Of a stretch of DNA of 63,602 nt, positions 2,216 through 62,203 are shown one piece after another (position 1 is the stretch's first letter; each line of letters starts with the position of its first letter). The notes under the pieces were generated by a model. The model did not search any database. It saw nothing but the letters and a program-made list of their open reading frames with translations, and was not told the DNA's origin. The DNA comes from a virus, in the IMG/VR virus record IMGVR_UViG_3300046791_000392, positions 1 through 63,602 of that record; one strand, written 5' to 3'. Made by a program: the position numbers and the translations under genes.

Positions 2216-4507
2216 ATGAGACAACATCTTACCCTTGAAGAGTTTCTGGCGGCAGCGCGGGAAAGCATGGCCAAAATGGCCCTGTACTACCGGCCGGACC
2301 GCAAGTCGAAAATTGGCAAGATCACCGTCGCCAGCCAGGGCAAGACCGGGTCCATTGCGTTCAAGTGGCGCGACGTGCGCGGCACCCGCATCCTGGACGC
2401 CCTGGTGAATTTCCCCGCCCTGCCGATTGCGGCGAAGCTCACCCGGCGCGAAGCCGAAATTTGGCTGGGGTACGCGGTGCACGAAATCGGCGGCCACGCC
2501 CTGCACACCGACACGGTGGCGTGGGACCAAGCGGTTGTGCAGGGGCGCGGTTTTGCACGCTTGGTGAATGGTCTTGAAGACCCCAGGATCGAGGCCTGCG
2601 CGATCCGGATCATTCCCGGCGCGCGCAAGCGCTTGACCGATCTTCTGGAGCACGTCCTGGACAAGGCCTTGGCCGGCGGGTACTCCCCGATGGACCCGCT
2701 GAACCTCGCGTTCACGTTCGCCCTGCTGGGTCGCGTGCGCCTGTCCGGCACGCTGTCCAAGCGCATCAAGGCTGACGTCGTGTCCAAGATGACGCCGGCC
2801 GCGCGCCGCTGGTTTCGCGGGCACCTGGACACGCTGGCGAATTGCAAAAGCACGGAAGACGTGGTCGCCCTGGCGCACGTGATCGCCGCCCAGGTGAAGG
2901 TTCCGGAACCGCAGAAGGGCGACGAGGGCGACCTGGGCAAAGCCCCCGACGAGCAGGAGCAGGGCGAGCAGAAGCCCGGCGAGCAGCAGGAGCAGGGCGA
3001 GCAGCAGGAGCAGGGCGAGCAGCAGGAGCAGGGCGAGCAGCAGGAGCAGGGCGAGCAGCAGGAGCAGGGCAAGCCCGGCGACGCCGACGCCGACGAGGGC
3101 GACGAGGGCGACGAGGGCGACGAGGGCGACGAGGGCGACGAGGGCGACGAGGGCGACGAGGGCGACGAGGGCGACGAGGGCGACGAGGGCGAGGGCGACG
3201 AGGGCGAGGGCGAGGGCGAGGGCGAGGGCGAGGGCGAGGAAGCCGCTCAGGAGCCCGCCCAGGAGCCTGGACAGGGCGAGGGCGGCGAAGCCCCGGCAGA
3301 AGAGCCCGACGCGCTGGACGACCCCCAGGACGGGCAGGGCGACGGCACCGGCGACGAGGGCGCAGGTACGCCCCCGCCCTGGACGCTGCCGCCCTCCGAA
3401 ATGGCTAAGCTCCACGACCCGGAGCCGGACTTGGGCGACATGGCGCAGAAGATCCAGGACCGCTCCGACAAGGCCGGCGACGGCGGGCACCTGTACGGCG
3501 GCGCCAATGTCCTGCGCAAGGTCGAGGGCGGCGGCGACGGCGGCTACACGTCACGCCCCACCGGCCGCGCCCTGGACGAATTGCGCATCGCCGCCCGCCT
3601 GGGCAGCGCCAGGAACCGGGGCCTGCTGCGGCAAATCCTGGTATCGGCGGAACGGTCCGGCTGGAACGCGTTCGAGCGGTCCGGCGCCCTGAACCCGGCG
3701 GATATCGCGCGCAGTCAAACCGGCGACCAGAACGTGTTCCGGCGCCGCTGGATCGAGGAGGGCATTTCCACGACGGTGTCCATCCTGGTGGACGGTTCCA
3801 GCAGCATGAACGGCGAGGAAATGAGCCACGCCACCGCCATGGCGTACGTGCTCGCCGACGTCACGGAAAAATGCGGCCTGCAGTCGGAGGTCGCCGTGTT
3901 CCGCGACACCGGGCAGCGCACCGCCGCCCTGCCGGTGTTTGACAACGGCTGGCGCCCGGTGCACCGCCGCTGGTACGGCAGTAACGGCGACGACACCCGC
4001 ATCGCCCCCGATGGCCGGCTCGACCGGACCCAGGCGAACGAAAGCAGCGACGGCGCGACGTGCGACCTGTTCCTGGTCCAGGAACGGGGGGAGCGCCTGT
4101 CATCCGCCCCCGTGCTCGACCGGTTCCTGCGCATGTTCACGGTGGCGTGGGGGGGCACGCCCGATTTCGCCGGCACCATGGCCATGGTCTTGAGGCTGGC
4201 GCGCAGCGAGGGCGACCGCAAAATCCTGTTTGTGGTCACGGACGGGTGCGGCAACAAGGACGCCATGAAATGGATTGTTTCGTGGGCCAAGCGCAAGTTT
4301 GATATCGACGTGATCGGCGTCGGCATCGGGTCGCACACGGCCGTGTACCTCAAGGAACAATACCGGTTGTGGACGGCGGCGAGCATTGCCCGCGCATTCG
4401 GCACCGGCCCCGGCGCCGGGCAGGCGTGGTCCGCGTTCGCCAGCGAAGCGCTCGCCCTGCTGGTGAAGCAGGCGCGAACCAACTTCAAGGCGCGCCGCGC
4501 GGGATAG
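2216..4507 (+). CDS. CobT-like VWA-domain protein
   Basis: 763 residues, start supported by GGAG 7 nt upstream. An N-terminal CobT-like region contains HEIGGH near residue 89. Residues about 233-376 are a low-complexity acidic segment of GEQQEQ and DEG repeats. A C-terminal von Willebrand factor A domain has the MIDAS motif DGSSSM near 526-531 and a threonine in the GGTPD segment further on. This is the architecture of cobaltochelatase CobT-type subunits, which pair with a CobS/MoxR ATPase, here the gene directly upstream. Metal binding by the MIDAS is expected. The substrate is unknown. The very long acidic repeat is unusual and probably flexible, perhaps DNA-mimicking or cation-binding (inference). 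Confidence 0.85.
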   Translation: MRQHLTLEEFLAAARESMAKMALYYRPDRKSKIGKITVASQGKTGSIAFKWRDVRGTRILDALVNFPALPIAAKLTRREAEIWLGYAVHEIGGHALHTDTVAWDQAVVQGRGFARLVNGLEDPRIEACAIRIIPGARKRLTDLLEHVLDKALAGGYSPMDPLNLAFTFALLGRVRLSGTLSKRIKADVVSKMTPAARRWFRGHLDTLANCKSTEDVVALAHVIAAQVKVPEPQKGDEGDLGKAPDEQEQGEQKPGEQQEQGEQQEQGEQQEQGEQQEQGEQQEQGKPGDADADEGDEGDEGDEGDEGDEGDEGDEGDEGDEGDEGEGDEGEGEGEGEGEGEEAAQEPAQEPGQGEGGEAPAEEPDALDDPQDGQGDGTGDEGAGTPPPWTLPPSEMAKLHDPEPDLGDMAQKIQDRSDKAGDGGHLYGGANVLRKVEGGGDGGYTSRPTGRALDELRIAARLGSARNRGLLRQILVSAERSGWNAFERSGALNPADIARSQTGDQNVFRRRWIEEGISTTVSILVDGSSSMNGEEMSHATAMAYVLADVTEKCGLQSEVAVFRDTGQRTAALPVFDNGWRPVHRRWYGSNGDDTRIAPDGRLDRTQANESSDGATCDLFLVQERGERLSSAPVLDRFLRMFTVAWGGTPDFAGTMAMVLRLARSEGDRKILFVVTDGCGNKDAMKWIVSWAKRKFDIDVIGVGIGSHTAVYLKEQYRLWTAASIARAFGTGPGAGQAWSAFASEALALLVKQARTNFKARRAG
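2979..3069 (+). repeat. 18-bp tandem repeat in the VWA gene
   Basis: About five head-to-tail copies of an 18-bp unit coding GEQQEQ. Near-exact nucleotide copies point to slippage or unequal recombination rather than selection on the protein sequence alone. Confidence 0.8.
3092..3190 (+). repeat. Eleven 9-bp units coding DEG
   Basis: Eleven perfect copies of GACGAGGGC, followed by degenerate GAGGGC units to about 3240. The reverse strand of this stretch gives a spurious long open frame of ALV repeats. Confidence 0.9.
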
Positions 4508-23941: not shown

Positions 23942-24454
23942 ATGCCTCCAGTCTTCGCCATGATCATCCCGCTCAACGAGATCGCCGGCATGCCCGGCGT
24001 GCCGACGCATCCGATTGCGCCCGGTGGACAGCCCGGACGCCCCGACCAGGGACTTCCTCCTCCGGGTTGGCCTGGCGGGCCGCATGTTCCTTCGCAGGGA
24101 CCGGGCTTCCCGACCAACCCGATTGCACCGGGCGGCCAGCAGCCGGGCATCGACAATTCCCTGCCGCCGCTGCCGCCGGGCACCTCGCCGCCGAATGTCC
24201 CCAGCACGGGACCGGGGTTCCCGACCCACCCGATCAACCTGCCCGGCACGCCGAACGCGCCGCCGGGTCAGATCTGGCCGCCGGTGGCGGATGTCCACAC
24301 CAAGACGTGGACACTAGCATGGTTGCCGGGACACGGCTTGCGCTGGATCACCGTCGAGCCGCCGCGTCCGGACCAGGGCCTGCCGCCGGGCATGCCGGGT
24401 CAGCCGGCGCGGCCGGGCCAGCCCCTCCCACCGACCGCGCAGCCCAAGGCCTGA
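23942..24454 (+). CDS. Pro/Gly-rich repeat protein
   Basis: 170 residues with AGAGGAG before the ATG. Built mostly of PG-rich units such as PGVPTHPIAPGG, GPGFPTNPIAPGG and GPGFPTHPINLPG, with one ordered stretch around residues 118-142. Probably extended and flexible. Function unknown. Confidence 0.62.
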   Translation: MPPVFAMIIPLNEIAGMPGVPTHPIAPGGQPGRPDQGLPPPGWPGGPHVPSQGPGFPTNPIAPGGQQPGIDNSLPPLPPGTSPPNVPSTGPGFPTHPINLPGTPNAPPGQIWPPVADVHTKTWTLAWLPGHGLRWITVEPPRPDQGLPPGMPGQPARPGQPLPPTAQPKA

Positions 24455-24564: not shown

Positions 24565-24762
24565 ATGATCACCGGCCTGTACACACGCGGCGGCGTGGAC
24601 ATCGACGGCGAGATCCGCCCGCTGTCCAACCACGAGAAGATCGAGCGCGACATCCAATTGATCCGCGCCGCGCTGATCAAGAGCCGGCGGGTCCTGCGCG
24701 CCGGGCCGCGCGTGTCGGAGCGGCTTACAGTCGTAGATCCAGGGTCCGGTAAGGTCTTGTAA
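24565..24762 (+). CDS. Small protein, unknown
   Basis: 65 residues, charged and mostly helical (NHEKIERDIQLIRAALIKSRRVL). No clear ribosome site before the ATG at 24565. Ends 9 nt before the sigma-54-like promoter of the next gene. No family recognised. Confidence 0.5.
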   Translation: MITGLYTRGGVDIDGEIRPLSNHEKIERDIQLIRAALIKSRRVLRAGPRVSERLTVVDPGSGKVL

Positions 24763-24769
24763 TCGTTCG

Positions 24770-24786
24770 CTGGCACGGCGCGTGCT
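24770..24786 (+). promoter_or_regulatory. Sigma-54 (RpoN)-type promoter
   Basis: CTGGCACG-GCGC-GTGCT matches the -24/-12 consensus (YTGGCACG-N4-TTGCW) at all eight -24 positions and four of five -12 positions, with the invariant GG at 24772-24773 and GC at 24784-24785 in correct register. Start expected near 24797, leaving a leader of about 43 nt before the PEP-CTERM gene. Expression would need host RpoN and an enhancer-binding activator. Confidence 0.7.
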
Positions 24787-24839
24787 TGCTGCCCATGGTC
24801 CGGCCGGACGCGGTCGGGTTTCACTCCTGGGAGAACTTC

Positions 24840-25517
24840 ATGAACCTGCGTAAATCTCTGCTCGGCGTGGGTATTGCCGGGTTCCTCGCCCTCGCCGGAC
24901 CGGCATACGCCGATATCATCCTCACCTACGGCCAAAGCGGCGGCGGTCCCACCATCACCGGCACCGCGTCCGCCAGCGGCACCACCTGGGGCGGCACCGA
25001 CATCCCGGTCACCGTGACCCAGATCGCCCCGAATGGACCTGCTACCCCGTTCGCGGCGTTCCTCGACGTCACTGCCGTCAGCATCGGCGGGGCCAACACG
25101 GTCGGGCCGTTCATCACTCAGGAGTTCAGCGGCAGCTTCTCGATCTGCTCGACCGCCGCCGGCTGCACGGTCAACTATCTGTCCGGGACGTTCTCGGACG
25201 GCGCGCTGACGGCCAACGGCGCGATCCAGATCGTGGTTGCGGCGCCCGACGTGACGTTCACGTCGAGCGTGATCCTGGCGCTGGGCGAGCCCAATGCGCT
25301 GGGCTTCACCCTGACCGACGTCGCCCCGCCGGTAAGCCTCGTTGCATGCACCACCTGCGACGGCGGCGGGCCGGGACAGACGATCAACTCGTTTGTCGCT
25401 GGCGTCGCCGGTAACGCCGCCGCCAACGTCGTCCCGGAGCCGGCGACCATCGCACTTTTCGGTGCGAGCCTGCTCGGGTTTGGCATCATGCGCCGTCGCC
25501 GCACGCGCGCGGCGTAA
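24840..25517 (+). CDS. PEP-CTERM sorted exported protein
   Basis: 225 residues. Signal peptide 1-24 with a cleavage-like AYA-D, a beta-rich Thr/Ser/Gly/Ala mature region with few charges and two Cys pairs, and a C-terminal sorting tail: VPEP (PEP at 199-201), hydrophobic helix, then RRRR. This tripartite tail is the signature recognised by exosortases in Gram-negative bacteria. The host must supply the exosortase; no such enzyme is encoded here. Start at 24840 has GGGAGA upstream. The protein probably reaches the outer surface or exopolysaccharide layer of the infected cell. Rare cargo for a phage. Confidence 0.88.
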   Translation: MNLRKSLLGVGIAGFLALAGPAYADIILTYGQSGGGPTITGTASASGTTWGGTDIPVTVTQIAPNGPATPFAAFLDVTAVSIGGANTVGPFITQEFSGSFSICSTAAGCTVNYLSGTFSDGALTANGAIQIVVAAPDVTFTSSVILALGEPNALGFTLTDVAPPVSLVACTTCDGGGPGQTINSFVAGVAGNAAANVVPEPATIALFGASLLGFGIMRRRRTRAA

Positions 25518-25528
25518 GTCCGTCTTCC

Positions 25529-25547
25529 GGAGGGGGCGTTCGCCCCC
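25529..25547 (+). other. GGGGGC hairpin after PEP-CTERM gene
   Basis: GGGGGC/GCCCCC stem with GTTC loop. The core GGGGCGTTCGCCCC is nearly the same as that of the hairpin at 26078-26103. A weak T-rich tract follows (CTCTCTTT), so it could terminate or protect mRNA. Confidence 0.5.
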
Positions 25548-25592
25548 TTCGTCTCTCTTTCGCGCCAGGTTGAACAGGGAAAGGCAAGACCA

Positions 25593-26069
25593 ATGCGCAA
25601 GAAAACTCTGTCCGATGCCGACATCGTGTCGCGTCGCACCGTGCTCGGCGCCGCCGCCGGCGCGGTCGCCGCCGCCGTCGTGACGCCGACCACGGCCGAA
25701 GCGCAACGGCTGCAGAGCGACACTGACCAGGGACCGAACAGCGACCCACCGGGCCGGCCTCGCCCGCGTGGACAGAGCGATACCGACAGAGGGCCGAACT
25801 CCGATGCGCCGGGCCGGCCGGGATCGCGCCAACCAACGAGTGACAACGACACCGGGCGCAACGCCGACCCGGCGGGGCGCCCGCGCCGGCAGTTCACCGA
25901 CAACGACCGTGGTCCCAACTCCGACGCCGCCGGGCACGGGGGTCCGCGTGGAACCGACAACGACACCGGGCGCTACGCCGACCAAGCCGGGCGCGGCCGG
26001 ATCACCGACAACGACAGCGGTCGCAACGCCGACCCGGCGGGCGAGGGTCGCGGCCCCGGCCGGCGCTAA
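25593..26069 (+). CDS. Tat-exported DxDxG-repeat protein
   Basis: 158 residues. Twin-arginine signal SRRTVLG at 13-19, hydrophobic stretch, cleavage-like AEA-Q near 37. The mature part is six imperfect repeats of pattern (S/T)D(T/N)DxGx(N/Y)(S/A)DxxG. The regular spacing of acidic residues resembles calcium-binding loops such as thrombospondin type 3 repeats, but binding is inferred. Next to the PEP-CTERM gene in the same direction, it suggests a cassette acting outside the cytoplasm. Confidence 0.78.
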   Translation: MRKKTLSDADIVSRRTVLGAAAGAVAAAVVTPTTAEAQRLQSDTDQGPNSDPPGRPRPRGQSDTDRGPNSDAPGRPGSRQPTSDNDTGRNADPAGRPRRQFTDNDRGPNSDAAGHGGPRGTDNDTGRYADQAGRGRITDNDSGRNADPAGEGRGPGRR

Positions 26070-26113: not shown

Positions 26114-26371
26114 ATGCCCGCCATCGTCTACGGCAGAGCCTTCGTCCTGGCGCAGGACAAGCGCTTGATCGACCTGGTCGCGACCATCGAGACGAATGTC
26201 GGGCCGCTGGTGGACACCTATGTGACGAGTGTCCATGACGTGTACCTGTGGGTGCTTCGTCATACGAGCGGCGCTGGACAGGCCACCGCGCTGGGCCTGA
26301 TCAACGCCGCGTACGGCGCCACGTACGACGCAACCAAGCCCTGGCTCGGGCCGATCCCGGCCGTGCCGTGA
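26114..26371 (+). CDS. Small protein, unknown
   Basis: 85 residues with CCCGGAGA upstream. Helical, moderately hydrophobic (IDLVATIETNVGPLVDTYVTSVHDVYLWVLRH), with no clear signal peptide. GTGA overlap with the next gene. Unknown function. Confidence 0.6.
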   Translation: MPAIVYGRAFVLAQDKRLIDLVATIETNVGPLVDTYVTSVHDVYLWVLRHTSGAGQATALGLINAAYGATYDATKPWLGPIPAVP

Positions 26372-26760
26372 GCGACACGCTCACGCTCGATCCGGTGCCG
26401 CAGGCGGCGCGCGCCACCGGCAACGGCTTCAAGTGCCTCGCGTGCGGCTTTGCCGACACCGCCGTCAAGGACACGCGGCCGACGAATTTTGGACCGCATC
26501 GGGTGATCCGCCGCCGGCGGCATTGCGCGCGCTGCAAGGGGCGCTGCACTACGGTCGAAATCGAACTCGGTGCGCTGGAAGGCATCGCCGGTGCCAACCC
26601 GGGCATGGCGGCGACGGCGCTGCAGGCCGCGATGCTGGCGGTGCGGCGCGCCGCCGACCTGCTGAACGTCACGCTACCGGTGCGGGACAAACAGCGGGAC
26701 GTGCGGCTCGCCGAAGACGCCGAACCACACGGCCACGCCGTACGCGACAATCATCAATAA
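26368..26760 (+). CDS. NrdR-like zinc-ribbon protein
   Basis: 130 residues, GTG start in a GTGA overlap. Residues about 20-64 match the NrdR N-terminal zinc ribbon: CLACG (C23, C26), DTAVKDTRP, IRRRRHCARC (C53, C56), TTVEI. The ATP-cone of full NrdR is missing and replaced by an unrelated helical tail. NrdR represses ribonucleotide reductase operons, so this stand-alone ribbon could act on host nucleotide genes. Last gene of the rightward operon. Confidence 0.7.
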   Translation: MSDTLTLDPVPQAARATGNGFKCLACGFADTAVKDTRPTNFGPHRVIRRRRHCARCKGRCTTVEIELGALEGIAGANPGMAATALQAAMLAVRRAADLLNVTLPVRDKQRDVRLAEDAEPHGHAVRDNHQ

Positions 26761-33059: not shown

Positions 33060-34202
33060 TTAGATCCCTGCGTCGGCCTGCCAATGCACACCGCACTGTT
33101 GGTTGACGCCACCACCGGCATTGCCGGTCGATGCGACACCGAAGCACCTGTCGATGGCGCCGAATGCGACTGTAGCGCTGTGATCGACCGAAGCACTCTC
33201 GTTGCGCACCTGCCCGTTGGCAGCAGATGGATTGTAAAACGCCACCGATGGAGACGTGCGCATCCGCACACCAAAAGAATGGAACATGCTAAAGCTCGAC
33301 GCGCCTCCCGTGATGGTCTGCCCCATCAGTTCGCCGTTGTTGATACCGACGCCTGAGTTGGGGGCCATGCCATACTGAAACGACTTCTGATAGTGCCGCT
33401 GGCACGCCTGCAACTCGCTCTCGAACGGCCTGCGCTCGAACGGCGTCGCGACGCTGCCGATCTCAAGCTGCACATCGTCAATCGCCCATACATCCGCAGC
33501 ACCCGCTGTGCCAACCGGCGTCCACAAGAACTGAAGCGACGCCTGCGTCGCATTTGTCGGCACCACGACGGCGGATGTGAACGTCAAGCGCTGCGGCGTG
33601 CCTACCGGCAATGTTGCCGTGGCAGCGATAACATCCGTCTCGCCGGTGAATGCAACCGTGCTGCGCTTGGCCGCAGCGCCAGTGCCGGTGCGAAATCGCA
33701 CGAGCAGTGCCTGTCCTGCCGGTGTCCAGCCGGCATTGCAATATGCTATGAACGACAGCGTGACGATGCTGTTCTGCGCCATCACGATCTCGTCGGTATC
33801 AAGCGGAAACTCAAAGACCATGATGCTGACGCCGGTCTGTCCGCTGCTGCGGAAGATGTTGGCACCAAAGCGCGATCCCGCTACACCAGGAGCACCTTGT
33901 GCAACGACGCTTGCTTGATTGGCGCCCGTCGTCAGCCACCAACCGTCACTCGTATAAGCACCGCCGGCAGCCCCTACCGAGATAGCAGCACTCCCGCCGG
34001 CCCCGCGCTGCCACACCTCAAAGCCGCCGTTGCGTCCAAGTATGTTGCGATACGACAGCGCACGACCGATGTTCGCTGGATCACCGGCACCACTACCGAT
34101 CTCACGTCCCTTCACTGTGCCGTCAGGCATGTCAGCAAGCTGTGCATCCGTCACGCTGTTGAGCGGAGGATAGAAGCCTGGTGACTGCGGATAGTAGGGC
34201 AT
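33060..34202 (-). CDS. Tail fibre/receptor-binding protein, copy C
   Basis: 380 residues. Third of three tandem paralogues: a short anchor (DAQLADMPDGTVKGREIGSG), a NGGFEVWQRGAGG domain, a lectin-like beta region with ATPFERRPFESELQAC+RHYQK, and a variable C-terminal tip ending in WQADAGI. A 73-bp block (33401-33473) is identical to 35907-35979 in copy A. Expected to contact host surface sugars. Confidence 0.82.
   Translation of the reverse strand: MPYYPQSPGFYPPLNSVTDAQLADMPDGTVKGREIGSGAGDPANIGRALSYRNILGRNGGFEVWQRGAGGSAAISVGAAGGAYTSDGWWLTTGANQASVVAQGAPGVAGSRFGANIFRSSGQTGVSIMVFEFPLDTDEIVMAQNSIVTLSFIAYCNAGWTPAGQALLVRFRTGTGAAAKRSTVAFTGETDVIAATATLPVGTPQRLTFTSAVVVPTNATQASLQFLWTPVGTAGAADVWAIDDVQLEIGSVATPFERRPFESELQACQRHYQKSFQYGMAPNSGVGINNGELMGQTITGGASSFSMFHSFGVRMRTSPSVAFYNPSAANGQVRNESASVDHSATVAFGAIDRCFGVASTGNAGGGVNQQCGVHWQADAGI
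33401..33473 (-). repeat. 73-bp repeat shared by fibre genes C and A
   Basis: By eye identical to 35907-35979. Codes the conserved FERRPFESELQAC region. Offers a site for recombination or gene conversion between paralogues. Confidence 0.85.
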
Positions 34203-34205
34203 GTG

Positions 34206-35387
34206 CTAGATACCTGCGTCGGCGGTGAGATGCACACCAACTTGTGTGTTCACTCCTGGAGTGCCTGGAATTACGCCATATATCATCGTGCTTTCTTGTG
34301 ATGTGTACACTACAGTAGTGCCAGTGAATGGTAGATTAGCAATAAGGTCATATATCTGATTGCCGCTTGCACCAATACTAATAGGGGTAACAGTTGGCGC
34401 AGCACGCATCGAAATTGGAAAGCGATATGGGAGCATCGCCAACGCACCACTGCCACCAGGAACAACGGTGTTGTACTGAATGTGCCCCAGCGTGTTACCT
34501 AACTGTGCAACAGGTGCGACTGGATAGTTGAATGTCTTCTGATAGTGTCTCTTACACGCCAACAGTTCACTCTCAAATGGTCTACGCTCGAATGGTGTTG
34601 CAACGCTACCGACTTCGAGTTGTACGTCGTCAAGTGCCCAGTAGTCAGATGATGCTGTGCCGACAGGCACCCAGTCGAAATAGACGGATGCCTGCGTCGT
34701 ATTGTTCGGGACCACAATCGTGGATGTCATTGTGAAGCGTGTGACGGTCGGCGTCACTGAAACCGCTACGGTCGTATCAATGATCACTTGCTCGCCAGTG
34801 TATGCACCGGCAGACCGTCTTGCCGGTGATCCACTGCCGATGAACAATCGAACGCGGACGTTCTTGCCTACTGGCGAGAACGTCGCGGATGCGAGTGTTG
34901 AGAACGACAGCGTGACGAAATTACCGCGTGCCGTCGCAATCTCGTCGGTGTCCAATGGATACTCGTACGAGATCGCTGCGACGCCCGTCTGTCCATCAGT
35001 GCGTTGCAGGACAACAGCCCAGCGCGATCCTGGCGCCAAGCCGAAGCCCGATACGCCAGCCCACTGATAAACATTCGAGTTCTGTCCTGCGCTGCAAGCG
35101 TAGTACCAGCCATCTGCTGTGTATCCTGCCGTGGAAGGCATCGCCATCTGCGCTGGCGCACCACCAGCACCTCTCTGCCACACTTCAAATCCACCATTGC
35201 GACCGAGTATGTTCCTGTAGCTCAGTCCTTGTGATGCAGCAATCAAGCTGCTCATCGGCAAGTCTTGTGGATCACCAGTGCCAGTACCAGCAGCACGACC
35301 CTTGACTGTGTTCGCTGCCATGTCTGCGAGCAGCACATTGTCGATGCTGTTGGGATAGAGGCCGCCGCCTTGTGGATAGAGAGGCAT
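34206..35387 (-). CDS. Tail fibre/receptor-binding protein, copy B
   Basis: 393 residues, start set by the MPLYPQGGG N-terminus shared with its paralogues. Same domain order as copies A and C with a different tip (HLTADAGI end). The coding sequence is clearly richer in A/T and uses different codons from the neighbours, as in a recently acquired or separately evolved allele. Confidence 0.82.
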   Translation of the reverse strand: MPLYPQGGGLYPNSIDNVLLADMAANTVKGRAAGTGTGDPQDLPMSSLIAASQGLSYRNILGRNGGFEVWQRGAGGAPAQMAMPSTAGYTADGWYYACSAGQNSNVYQWAGVSGFGLAPGSRWAVVLQRTDGQTGVAAISYEYPLDTDEIATARGNFVTLSFSTLASATFSPVGKNVRVRLFIGSGSPARRSAGAYTGEQVIIDTTVAVSVTPTVTRFTMTSTIVVPNNTTQASVYFDWVPVGTASSDYWALDDVQLEVGSVATPFERRPFESELLACKRHYQKTFNYPVAPVAQLGNTLGHIQYNTVVPGGSGALAMLPYRFPISMRAAPTVTPISIGASGNQIYDLIANLPFTGTTVVYTSQESTMIYGVIPGTPGVNTQVGVHLTADAGI

Positions 35388-35389
35388 GG

Positions 35390-35566
35390 CTATTTCGGTC
35401 CCGGCAGTGGAGGTGGCTCGTAGTCGGCGGCATAGGCCGTGTTGCCCGCTTCCACCCACGCGACGTATTCGCGCCAGTCTGAATTTCGTTCATCTTCCGG
35501 CACGAACGCTCCGTCGCTGAGACGCTGCACGCCGCCCATTGCATTGAGCTTGTAGCTTTCGGTCAT
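35390..35566 (-). CDS. Fibre-assembly-type small protein, copy 1
   Basis: 58 residues: MTESYKLNAMGGVQRLSDG start, PEDERNSDWREYVAWVEAGN, PPPLPGPK end. Nearly the same as copy 2 at 32878-33057. Lies between fibre genes A and B. Confidence 0.75.
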   Translation of the reverse strand: MTESYKLNAMGGVQRLSDGAFVPEDERNSDWREYVAWVEAGNTAYAADYEPPPLPGPK

Positions 35567-35568
35567 GG

Positions 35569-36732
35569 CTAGATCCCTGCGTCTGCGGTGAAATGGACGC
35601 CCAGCTGATGCCCGGTGGCTGTCGAAACGGGACCAGCGCCATTTACGGCAACGGAGTTTGCCGACCCGGCAAGACTTGTCGTCGTAAAATCAGCGCCTGC
35701 CGATTGGTTGCGTGCGAACGCATTTGCAGCACTTGTATTGAACCCGATGGTGGTCGGCATAGCGCGCATATCCACAGGCAGGCGCATCTGAAAGCCTTGA
35801 TTGCCGGCGCCGGACAGAAGCGCCCACCAGTTCAGCTCGCCGCTATTGAACCCGATATTCTGTGCAGGCGCGGTCGGGTACATAAAGGTTTTGTAGTAGT
35901 GCCGCCGGCACGCCTGCAACTCGCTCTCGAACGGCCTGCGCTCGAACGGCGTCGCGACGCTGCCGATCTCAAGCTGCACGTCGTCAATCGCCATAAGATC
36001 AGCACTAGCCGTACCGACTGGTGTCCAATAGACCCTGACGCACGCTTGTGTCGTGTTCGCCGGTATGGGCACGGAAGATGTAACGACAAAGCGCGTGAGC
36101 GCTGTCGTCAAAACGCAGGCTGCATTTCCTGGGAATGTAACGCCGGTCCACGCACCGCCAGTGAAACGAGAAACCGGCCCGGTTCCGCAAACGACCTGCG
36201 CTTGTAGAATGCTACCCGCTGGCGACCAGCCAGCGGCTTTCCATGCTATGAATGACAGCGTGACAGTTTCGCCACGCATCTTTGCGATCTCGTCACTGTC
36301 GAGCGGAAACTCCAAGATTACTAAGTTAGTAGCGGTGTTCCCATCGCCACGTTGCATGAGACATGCATAGCTAGATCCAGAGCCAGGATTATTGGCGGGA
36401 GTTTGATTGACAAAGAAAACGTTGGTAGCGGCATCCGTCCAACACCACCAACCATCTGCCGTGTATCGTCCACCCGTCGGTATGTTGAAGTTCGCACTCC
36501 CACCCGCGCCGCGCTGCCACACCTCAAAGCCGCCGTTGCGGCCGAGGATGTTCCGGTAGCTCAGCGGCACCATCGCCTGGAACTGCGCCGCCGTGAGATC
36601 CGTCGGATCACCGGTTCCGGCGCCCAAGGCTCTCCCTTTCACGGTCCCGGCCGGCATGTCCGTCAGGATGACGTTGTCCACGGTGTTGGGGAGCAGAACG
36701 CTCCCGCCGGGCGCTGGGGGAAAATACGGCAT
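35569..36732 (-). CDS. Tail fibre/receptor-binding protein, copy A
   Basis: 387 residues. First paralogue of the array: anchor (DNVILTDMPAGTVKGRALGAG), NGGFEVWQRGAGGSA, the FERRPFESELQACRRHYYK strand and a tip ending in HFTADAGI. Overlaps the longer fibre gene by one base (TAATG). Confidence 0.82.
   Translation of the reverse strand: MPYFPPAPGGSVLLPNTVDNVILTDMPAGTVKGRALGAGTGDPTDLTAAQFQAMVPLSYRNILGRNGGFEVWQRGAGGSANFNIPTGGRYTADGWWCWTDAATNVFFVNQTPANNPGSGSSYACLMQRGDGNTATNLVILEFPLDSDEIAKMRGETVTLSFIAWKAAGWSPAGSILQAQVVCGTGPVSRFTGGAWTGVTFPGNAACVLTTALTRFVVTSSVPIPANTTQACVRVYWTPVGTASADLMAIDDVQLEIGSVATPFERRPFESELQACRRHYYKTFMYPTAPAQNIGFNSGELNWWALLSGAGNQGFQMRLPVDMRAMPTTIGFNTSAANAFARNQSAGADFTTTSLAGSANSVAVNGAGPVSTATGHQLGVHFTADAGI
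35907..35979 (-). repeat. 73-bp repeat shared by fibre genes A and C
   Basis: Partner of 33401-33473; the two differ at the base immediately after. Confidence 0.85.
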
Positions 36733-60631: not shown

Positions 60632-60828
60632 CAGATCACTCCCTTCTTGAGGGCGAGCCATGCCGGCATCGTCCATGTGTTGTTCTCGTCGTCGCTGCCG
60701 TAGCCCTGCTCGACCTGCGACTTGGGAAACTAGATCTCCTCGCCGCCCTCGACGCGCAACAGCACGGCGGCGTCGGTTTCACGAACCAGCTGTCCCCAGA
60801 TCTCGACGGTGTCATGCGAGGTGGTCAT
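60631..60828 (-). pseudogene. Conserved small gene split by in-frame amber
   Basis: Begins MTTSHDTVEIWGQLVRE after a textbook CCTGGAG ribosome site. After 32 codons a TAG (60732-60730) interrupts; in the same frame the sequence continues FPKSQVEQGYG...TWTMPAWLALKKGVI and ends at a TGA that overlaps the Acb2 start by one base. The joined product (64 residues plus the amber) looks like a widespread small phage protein whose motif reads WFPKSQ, so TAG probably stands for an original TGG. Nonsense mutation, sequencing error or suppression are all possible. Other genes here use TAG as a real stop. Confidence 0.72.
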
Positions 60829-62203
60829 CGACGTTCTCCAGGTCGCTGTCGCTGTCGCTGTCGTCGTAGGCATCGCTCGCTTCGCCAGGCTCGCGCATGT
60901 CGTTGAGCCGCGCCTCAAGACCCCTCGTATAGAGCCCGTCCTCGGGCACCAGCATCGGCGGCATCTCGCTCGCGGCCAGCATGAGCGCCGTCACGCAATC
61001 GTCGTACATGCCCATCGGCGAGGAGTACCTGACCTTGCCGGTGGGCAGGATATCGTAGGTGAACGCCTCAAGCTCGTTCCACAGGAACGAGATGTCCTTG
61101 GATGCTTCGGCGGTGACCGTGGGTGGAGGTATATGCATGGCGCCGCTCTCGATCAGGCTGGCGAGATTCTGCGTCATGAAGGCTTTTCGCTCGTTGGAAA
61201 ACTTCACGCCGGTCATCGGCACGCCGTCGCCGGCCATGGCCTCGTAAAGAACTTCGCCGGGGCCGGCGATGTCCATGACCATCTTGCCGCGATAGCGCGT
61301 GAGATAGTTTTTGATCCGCATCAGCATCGTGTGCCACGGAAGATCTTTGAAGCGCTCGAACCCGACGACCTTGTTGTTCTCGTCCAATGATAAGAGCACT
61401 GTCCAATCGGAATGCCGCCCGATGTCGATGCCCGTCCGGCAGTTCGCCGCCTGTGGGCGGAGCTTGCAATCCTGGGACCGGGCACGCATCGCGCTGAGTC
61501 CCTTGAACACCATGCCGCCGGTGTCGAGGAACTCGGCCATGAACTCCTGATTGAACATATCCTCGGGGAGTTCGAGCTTGAGCCGATCCAATTCCTCCAC
61601 GGGGATGTAGGGATTGTCATACGTGGAGAATCGGAAGCTCTTCCACATGTTGACGCGCCCGTCCTTGTCGTCCTTGTTCAGGCCGCGCAGATAGATCTTG
61701 TGAAACGCGTTCTTGCCCTTGGGCGTGCCGCTCAACCATGCCCAGCCCTGGCGGTCGATGAGCATCGCCGCGATAGGGCCTTCCCATAGCTCCATCAAGG
61801 CCCCTATGAGCCCGGCCTCGTTGATGATGATGCCGTCGTACTGCCCCGACCGAAGGTTGTCCGGCTGGTCGGCCGAGAAGAACGTGATCCGGTCGCCATT
61901 GATGAGGGTGACCTCCATCGGCGGCGTTCTGATCACCCCGTCTTTCGCTATGAGCTTTCCCGATTCGGCGAACTGCCGGAAGATCCGAAAGCTCTCCTTG
62001 CCCTGCGGGTTGTAGACGGGGTTCAGCCACGCGTAGAGCTTCTGACCCCTCGGGGAGATCTTCGAGAAGCACTCGATCAAGAGATTGATGCTGATCAAGT
62101 GGTCCTTGCCCCAGCGTCTCCCGCACACCAGCGTCTTGAAGCGATGATTGTCGCGCAGCACCTCCATCTGCGTGGGATGGACCTCGAAATTGAAATCAAG
62201 CAT
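60812..62203 (-). CDS. terL: Terminase large subunit
   Basis: 463 residues. ATPase: Walker A-like CGRRWGKD at 27-34, Walker B GIIINEAG with E129, SGTPKG at 158-163. Nuclease domain: D260 (GIDIGRHSD), D311 (MVMDIAG), D401/D402 (MYDDCVTALM). Acidic C-terminal tail with SDSDSDLENVDD. Drives DNA into the head at the portal and cuts the concatemer. Start by Met before the first conserved strand; 8-nt overlap with the upstream gene. Confidence 0.92.
   Translation of the reverse strand: MLDFNFEVHPTQMEVLRDNHRFKTLVCGRRWGKDHLISINLLIECFSKISPRGQKLYAWLNPVYNPQGKESFRIFRQFAESGKLIAKDGVIRTPPMEVTLINGDRITFFSADQPDNLRSGQYDGIIINEAGLIGALMELWEGPIAAMLIDRQGWAWLSGTPKGKNAFHKIYLRGLNKDDKDGRVNMWKSFRFSTYDNPYIPVEELDRLKLELPEDMFNQEFMAEFLDTGGMVFKGLSAMRARSQDCKLRPQAANCRTGIDIGRHSDWTVLLSLDENNKVVGFERFKDLPWHTMLMRIKNYLTRYRGKMVMDIAGPGEVLYEAMAGDGVPMTGVKFSNERKAFMTQNLASLIESGAMHIPPPTVTAEASKDISFLWNELEAFTYDILPTGKVRYSSPMGMYDDCVTALMLAASEMPPMLVPEDGLYTRGLEARLNDMREPGEASDAYDDSDSDSDLENVDDHLA

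Follow-up and report, generated by a model that had tools for sequence, protein, structure and literature searches.

The window, an IMG/VR virus record of 63,602 bases that was analyzed over its full length, carries a gene for what is almost certainly a PEP-CTERM protein (P0001), preceded by a two-box promoter of the kind predicted for proteobacterial PEP-CTERM genes. The phage context, the PEP-CTERM tail, the two-box promoter and its conservation were each established from the sequence. On balance, the gene is read as an accessory ("moron") gene that supplies a substrate for exosortase, is controlled by the host, and alters the envelope of the carrier cell. The features concerned are:

24713-24729, plus strand: motif 1, predicted box for PrsR (NtrC-type activator), TGTCGGAGCGGCTTACA, fitting TGTC-N7-(T/C)TTACA
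24770-24786, plus strand: motif 2, predicted sigma-54 -24/-12 promoter, CTGGCACG-N4-GTGCT, with GG at 24772-24773 and GC at 24784-24785
24840-25517, plus strand: gene of PEP-CTERM protein P0001, 225 aa (open reading frame; profile matches; 35 family loci)
24840-24911, plus strand: Sec-type signal peptide, MNLRKSLLGVGIAGFLALAGPAYA followed by D (read from the sequence; model helix 6-17)
25431-25502, plus strand: PEP-CTERM sorting tail, VPEPATIALFGASLLGFGIMRRRR (TIGR02595, PF07589; helix 202-224)
25528-25551, plus strand: intrinsic-terminator-like hairpin with a 10-bp stem, directly 3' of the P0001 gene

An earlier note on this DNA had described the product as a signal peptide, a beta-rich body and a PEP-helix-RRRR tail, and all three parts were recovered. 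The signal peptide was read as a KR n-region and a hydrophobic core ending in AYA, with D following, and A22 and A24 were invariant across the family alignment. In the AlphaFold2 model the body was composed of strands only, at a pLDDT of about 85-92 in most blocks, and the C-terminal helix ran into RRRR. The HMM search that the note had proposed gave P0001 27.9 bits with TIGR02595 (curated cut-off 16) and 26.8 bits with the Pfam model PF07589 (curated cut-off 20.7). Membership in floc_PepA (NF033554) was rejected, since P0001 scored 31.8 bits where 80 are required and owed this score to the tail; the body alone matched neither this nor any other NCBIfam model. No structure in PDB or BFVD matched the P0001 fold at an E value below 0.001.

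The P0001 gene is likely a single-gene unit, because the terminator-like hairpin lies directly behind it; four terminator-like sites (overlapping or other) were found in the scanned region versus 1.1 expected. The next gene in the 3' direction (25593-26069, plus strand) encodes a protein that has a Tat-like signal and several 'SDxDxGxNxDxxG' repeats and for which no match was found among families, plasmids or cultured phages. On the 5' side lies a gene for a proline-rich protein with PDQGLP/HPIA-type repeats (23942-24454, plus strand), for which neither a PHROG nor a cultured-phage match was found. In several lineages this gene recurs immediately or a short distance 5' of the phage PEP-CTERM gene, at the following positions:

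L011, 9393-9947; L012, 9201-9884; L062, 6405-6893; L065, 142-621; L068, 4752-5450: proline-rich repeat gene in relatives

The window is a genuine tailed-phage contig, in agreement with the earlier claim that the gene is phage-encoded. The genes that mark it as such include:

60812-62203, minus strand: large terminase (TerL), a phage hallmark
57238-59649, minus strand: SU10-like portal, a phage hallmark
54048-55226, minus strand: major capsid protein, a phage hallmark
38060-47962, minus strand: protein of 3300 aa, encoded within the structural arm and containing a GNAT acetyltransferase domain (residues 2331-2389)
33060-36732, minus strand: three tandem tail-fiber genes, all assigned to phrog_4492

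The tail-fiber trio is possibly a host-range cassette. Also encoded are a primase, a family A-type DNA polymerase, a SNF2-type helicase, a PD-(D/E)XK nuclease and a dNMP kinase, together with a phage protein bearing an NrdR-type zinc ribbon (26368-26760, plus strand; PF22811, 41 bits).

By capsid protein, the closest cultured phages were Roseobacter phage CRP-810 (44% identical) and then Caulobacter phage Kuura (35%). CRP-810, a Roseobacter CHUG phage (PMC11288001), also shares with the window a stabilization protein (29% identical), a CobS/CobT-like pair at the left end and a leftward structural arm, but matches were obtained for just 4 of the 26 CRP-810 proteins tested, a comparison that left out TerL and the portal. 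The CRP-810-type family is defined by conserved synteny together with capsid, Prim-Pol, TerL, portal, AAA ATPase and PD-(D/E)XK genes (PMC11288001); the PrimPol, AAA and PD-(D/E)XK genes of CRP-810 were unmatched in the window by tblastn, whereas the capsid and the CobS/CobT arrangement were common to both. CRP-810 has an integrase; no tyrosine integrase was detected in the window by a search that does find the one in CRP-810. The GNAT of CRP-810 is a separate gene rather than a domain within a larger protein, and the CRP-810 annotation (first 49 kb), unlike the window, contains no PEP-CTERM gene. None was found in the searched viral contigs with related capsid proteins, all of which were partial. 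Phages of the CRP-810 type are mostly temperate, and prophages have been reported in SAR11, Poseidonocella and Sphingomonadaceae (PMC11288001). Because of the kinship with CRP-810 and the hosts of these prophages, an alphaproteobacterial host is likely for the window phage.

Scans of 2.9 million viral contigs placed the P0001 family, a diverse one, at 35 loci. TIGR02595 matched all 18 representative members, as did NF033554 weakly (18/18), and every complete member ended in a PEP-helix-Arg-type tail (with VAEP in L009 and L010). Twenty-six columns were invariant across 18 aligned sequences, most of them within the body. Genes found next to family members code for a tail sheath, an integrase, portals and terminases from more than one PHROG, so the family is carried by several, unrelated phage types of different morphotypes. 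No P0001 homologue was found in cultured phages or plasmids at the cut-offs used. A second PEP-CTERM gene was present close to the family gene in six contigs (L054, L056, L057, L058, L063 and L066); in L054 (10593-11420) and L056 (10604-11431) it stands in tandem behind the family gene and encodes a PEP-CTERM-type protein of about 275 aa with 'DGFEEW', unlike P0001. In L010, a relative that has both the PEP-CTERM gene and the promoter, an integrase gene adjoins a tRNA-Val-like 3' half (2534-3654). This region is likely attP, so at least L010 looks temperate.

The distribution of the family bears on whether the gene is merely host DNA, that is, a bacterial PEP-CTERM gene and promoter recently transduced or misassembled into the contig and useless to the phage. 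The bacterial type of the promoter would fit such an origin, as would the fact that PEP-CTERM genes are otherwise known from bacteria. It is nevertheless very improbable: against the 35 viral-contig loci, no body homologue was found in the 398 Pseudomonadota genomes searched (a search run without a positive bacterial control), and a scan of 84,980 species with short exact peptide patterns, which could miss remote homologues, gave one match, to the tail only. Relatives of the gene moreover adjoin TerL, portal or lysis genes, and the proline-rich repeat gene lies close on the 5' side in several of them.

In proteobacterial PEP-CTERM genes, a 17-nt motif 1 ending in TTTACA is followed, after a spacer of 32-92 nt, by a sigma-54 motif 2 located about 71 (23-221) nt before the start codon, and PrsR is the predicted activator (Haft et al. 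2006, PMC1569441). In the window, a 41-nt spacer separates motif 1 from TGGCACGGCGCGTGCT, GG and GC are 12 nt apart, motif 2 reads CTGGCACG-GCGC-GTGCT, and 53 nt lie between its end and the ATG at 24840. The spacer, the GG/GC pair and the start-codon distance all agree with the published description, and motif 1 does so with one mismatch in its ending (CTTACA for TTTACA); the CTTACA ending is also present among bacterial sites. The -12 box is GTGC, not TTGC.

Of the sigma-54-type promoter proposed in the earlier note, the -24/-12 register was upheld, and a PrsR box and conservation in other phages were added to it. The motif by itself was no better than chance: two equal-or-better sites were found in the window versus 0-3 per shuffle, scored with a sigma-54 weight matrix that was our own approximation. 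It gains significance because the cognate PrsR box lies 41 nt 5' of it. The complete two-box element occurred once in the window and in none of 30 shuffled windows, and within 847 kb of fetched loci it was found only 5' of PEP-CTERM genes (besides the window, L001, in L009, L010, L054, L057, L058, L063 and the bacterial L049).

The PrsR-type box was common to L009, L010, L054, L056, L057, L063 and bacterial genomes. Both boxes were present in five phage lineages, with spacers of 41 nt in the window and L009/L010, 49 nt in L054, and 42 nt in L057/L058 and L063; L056 kept motif 1 and had a degenerate motif 2. The lineages bearing the promoter formed two well-supported clades in the protein tree. 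The window and L009 agree in both boxes and in the precise spacing of 41 nt, yet their spacers are identical at only 14 of 41 bases, a pattern suggesting that the boxes have been under selection. The proposal that the promoter is absent from the relatives (L002-L016) was discarded because it does not hold for L009/L010 or for the L054-L063 clade. The two-box element is missing from about two thirds of the lineages in the family, and host-regulon control is therefore not universal.

Very probably, then, the P0001 gene is under PrsR/sigma-54 control, as predicted from these motifs. The converse, that P0001 is a genuine PEP-CTERM protein whose promoter is fortuitous or a relict and whose gene is expressed by read-through from a rightward early operon, could draw on the chance level of the sigma-54 motif, on the many relatives without the element, and on an upstream open reading frame (24565-24762) that overlaps motif 1. 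The outcome of the shuffles, the restriction of the element to sites before PEP-CTERM genes, and the conservation of boxes and spacing where the spacer diverged make it quite improbable.

The link to the RpoN and PrsK/PrsR network that had been suggested for this gene is supported by the naturally spaced cognate PrsR box, by the conservation in other phages and by the behavior of the element in bacteria. An exact pattern, TGTCN8TTACA-N(38-68)-TGGCAN6TTGC, was scanned against 398 Pseudomonadota genomes and gave 28 sites in 23 of them, with none for the reversed-pattern control. Sixteen of the 28 sites precede PEP-CTERM-type open reading frames, nine by the strict pattern and seven by eye; the latter have SEP/TEP/VPxPA-type tails and were counted separately, since the 'PEP' regular expression misses SEP/VPxPA-type bacterial tails. 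PrsR scored above its cut-off in 19 of the 23 genomes with the element and in 1 of 23 without it (Fisher p about 7e-8); the latter were hand-picked from the same 398-genome list while the PrsR result was still unseen. The two-box element thus predicts PrsR in bacteria. The Acetobacteraceae MAG behind L049 (G037), which has the element, contained an exosortase (197 bits), PrsR and 22 PEP-CTERM matches.

From these features a course of events may be proposed. The PrsR response regulator of the host would bind 24713-24729 and activate the sigma-54 RNA polymerase of the host, and the gene would be transcribed as a single-gene unit from the promoter at 24770-24786 to the terminator at 25528-25551. 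P0001 would be exported by Sec and would stay anchored in the inner membrane through its PEP-helix-Arg tail until host exosortase cut the tail, whereupon the product would pass to the outer surface or the exopolysaccharide matrix. There the beta-sheet domain would alter the envelope of the carrier cell, whether infected or, possibly, lysogenic, and display would occur when the PrsK/PrsR program of the host is on. Surface sorting of P0001 by the host is considered likely.

Phage morons and lysogenic-conversion genes are accessory genes with their own promoter and terminator that change the host envelope and bring about superinfection exclusion. The P0001 gene is proposed to resemble them in being accessory, in having a promoter and a terminator to itself and in acting on the host envelope, and to differ in that a host exosortase route and a host two-component/sigma-54 switch would replace phage control. 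By analogy with morons, the favored purpose is that P0001 shields the carrier cell from other phages, or makes cells aggregate, during the EPS/PEP-CTERM state of the host; this is advanced tentatively, at slightly less than even chances, and it is from this analogy that we infer superinfection exclusion or aggregation by P0001.

Bacterial PEP-CTERM proteins (Haft et al. 2006, PMC1569441) share with P0001 the signal peptide, the PEP-helix-Arg tail above both cut-offs, the single-gene unit and the proteobacterial two-box PrsR/sigma-54 promoter. P0001 differs from them in being phage-carried and in having a body that belongs to no described bacterial family, and its phages differ from bacterial PEP-CTERM systems in that no exosortase was found on the 12 viral records tested, the window included. 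Aquincola tertiaricarbonis PepA (NF033554), a direct analogue from bacteria whose gene is RpoN1-dependent and drives flocculation, likewise has an RpoN-type promoter (-24 box TGGCAC, -12 box CTGCTT; PMC9850573).

With the same promoter and tail, P0001 might instead be a decoy, a surplus substrate that blocks sorting of host PEP-CTERM proteins and so strips away matrix or surface proteins hindering phage release or adsorption, its body having no task of its own. Use of the host's own activator would tie the level of decoy to that of substrate, and the tandem pairs of PEP-CTERM genes in six contigs would suit such a role. Yet a pure decoy would need no conserved body, whereas that of P0001 is conserved over large divergence, and one added substrate is small beside, for example, the 22 PEP-CTERM matches in G037; we regard the decoy as unlikely. 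It is scarcely probable that P0001 is a virion or lysis component, such as a secreted envelope-acting lysis protein for which the PEP tail is merely a membrane anchor. In L016 the family gene precedes holin-like and endolysin-like open reading frames (read by eye), and in L011 and L012 it is near the terminase; but host two-component control fits late functions poorly, the full PEP-helix-Arg signature has been kept rather than just any TM helix, and in the window the gene stands apart from the structural genes.

The reading of P0001 as a host-controlled exosortase substrate may extend to other phages. A two-box search of viral contigs gave 109 stretches, of which chance alone was expected to give many (by a rough estimate, tens). 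Among 80 stretches examined, 11 were followed by PEP-CTERM or PEP-like open reading frames unrelated to P0001. Contigs among these included L151 (portal and head protease), L157 (endolysin and tail fiber), L122 (terminase) and L146 (integrase), and some could be prophage flanks. Whether phages recurrently hijack host PEP-CTERM/exosortase display, unrelated lineages having independently acquired substrates and the PrsR/sigma-54 switch and so joining the surface coat or EPS matrix under biofilm-type regulation by the host, is evenly balanced.

No report of phage-encoded exosortase substrates was found in the open-access literature. Exosortase sorting and phage morons were each known before; what is new is the joining of the two under control of a host two-component switch. 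If correct, this would connect phages with the protein-sorting system that is least understood among those of Gram-negative bacteria and provide small natural substrates that the host must process, allowing a direct test of the roles of PEP-CTERM proteins at the cell surface. The promoter would mean that phage cargo has been connected to a two-component/sigma-54 regulon of the host. The two-box pattern would offer a means of finding cargo genes of this kind and of predicting hosts (PrsR-positive, exosortase-positive Proteobacteria).

Five of the bacterial sites, all with a 43-nt spacer (L073, L074, L076, L078 and L081), lie 5' of a gene for a conserved protein of about 80-90 aa (RLFVIKTRxEAxLIIYALALGA). 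It is not a PEP-CTERM protein, its five genomes are PrsR-positive, and it is possibly an unknown member of the PrsR regulon.
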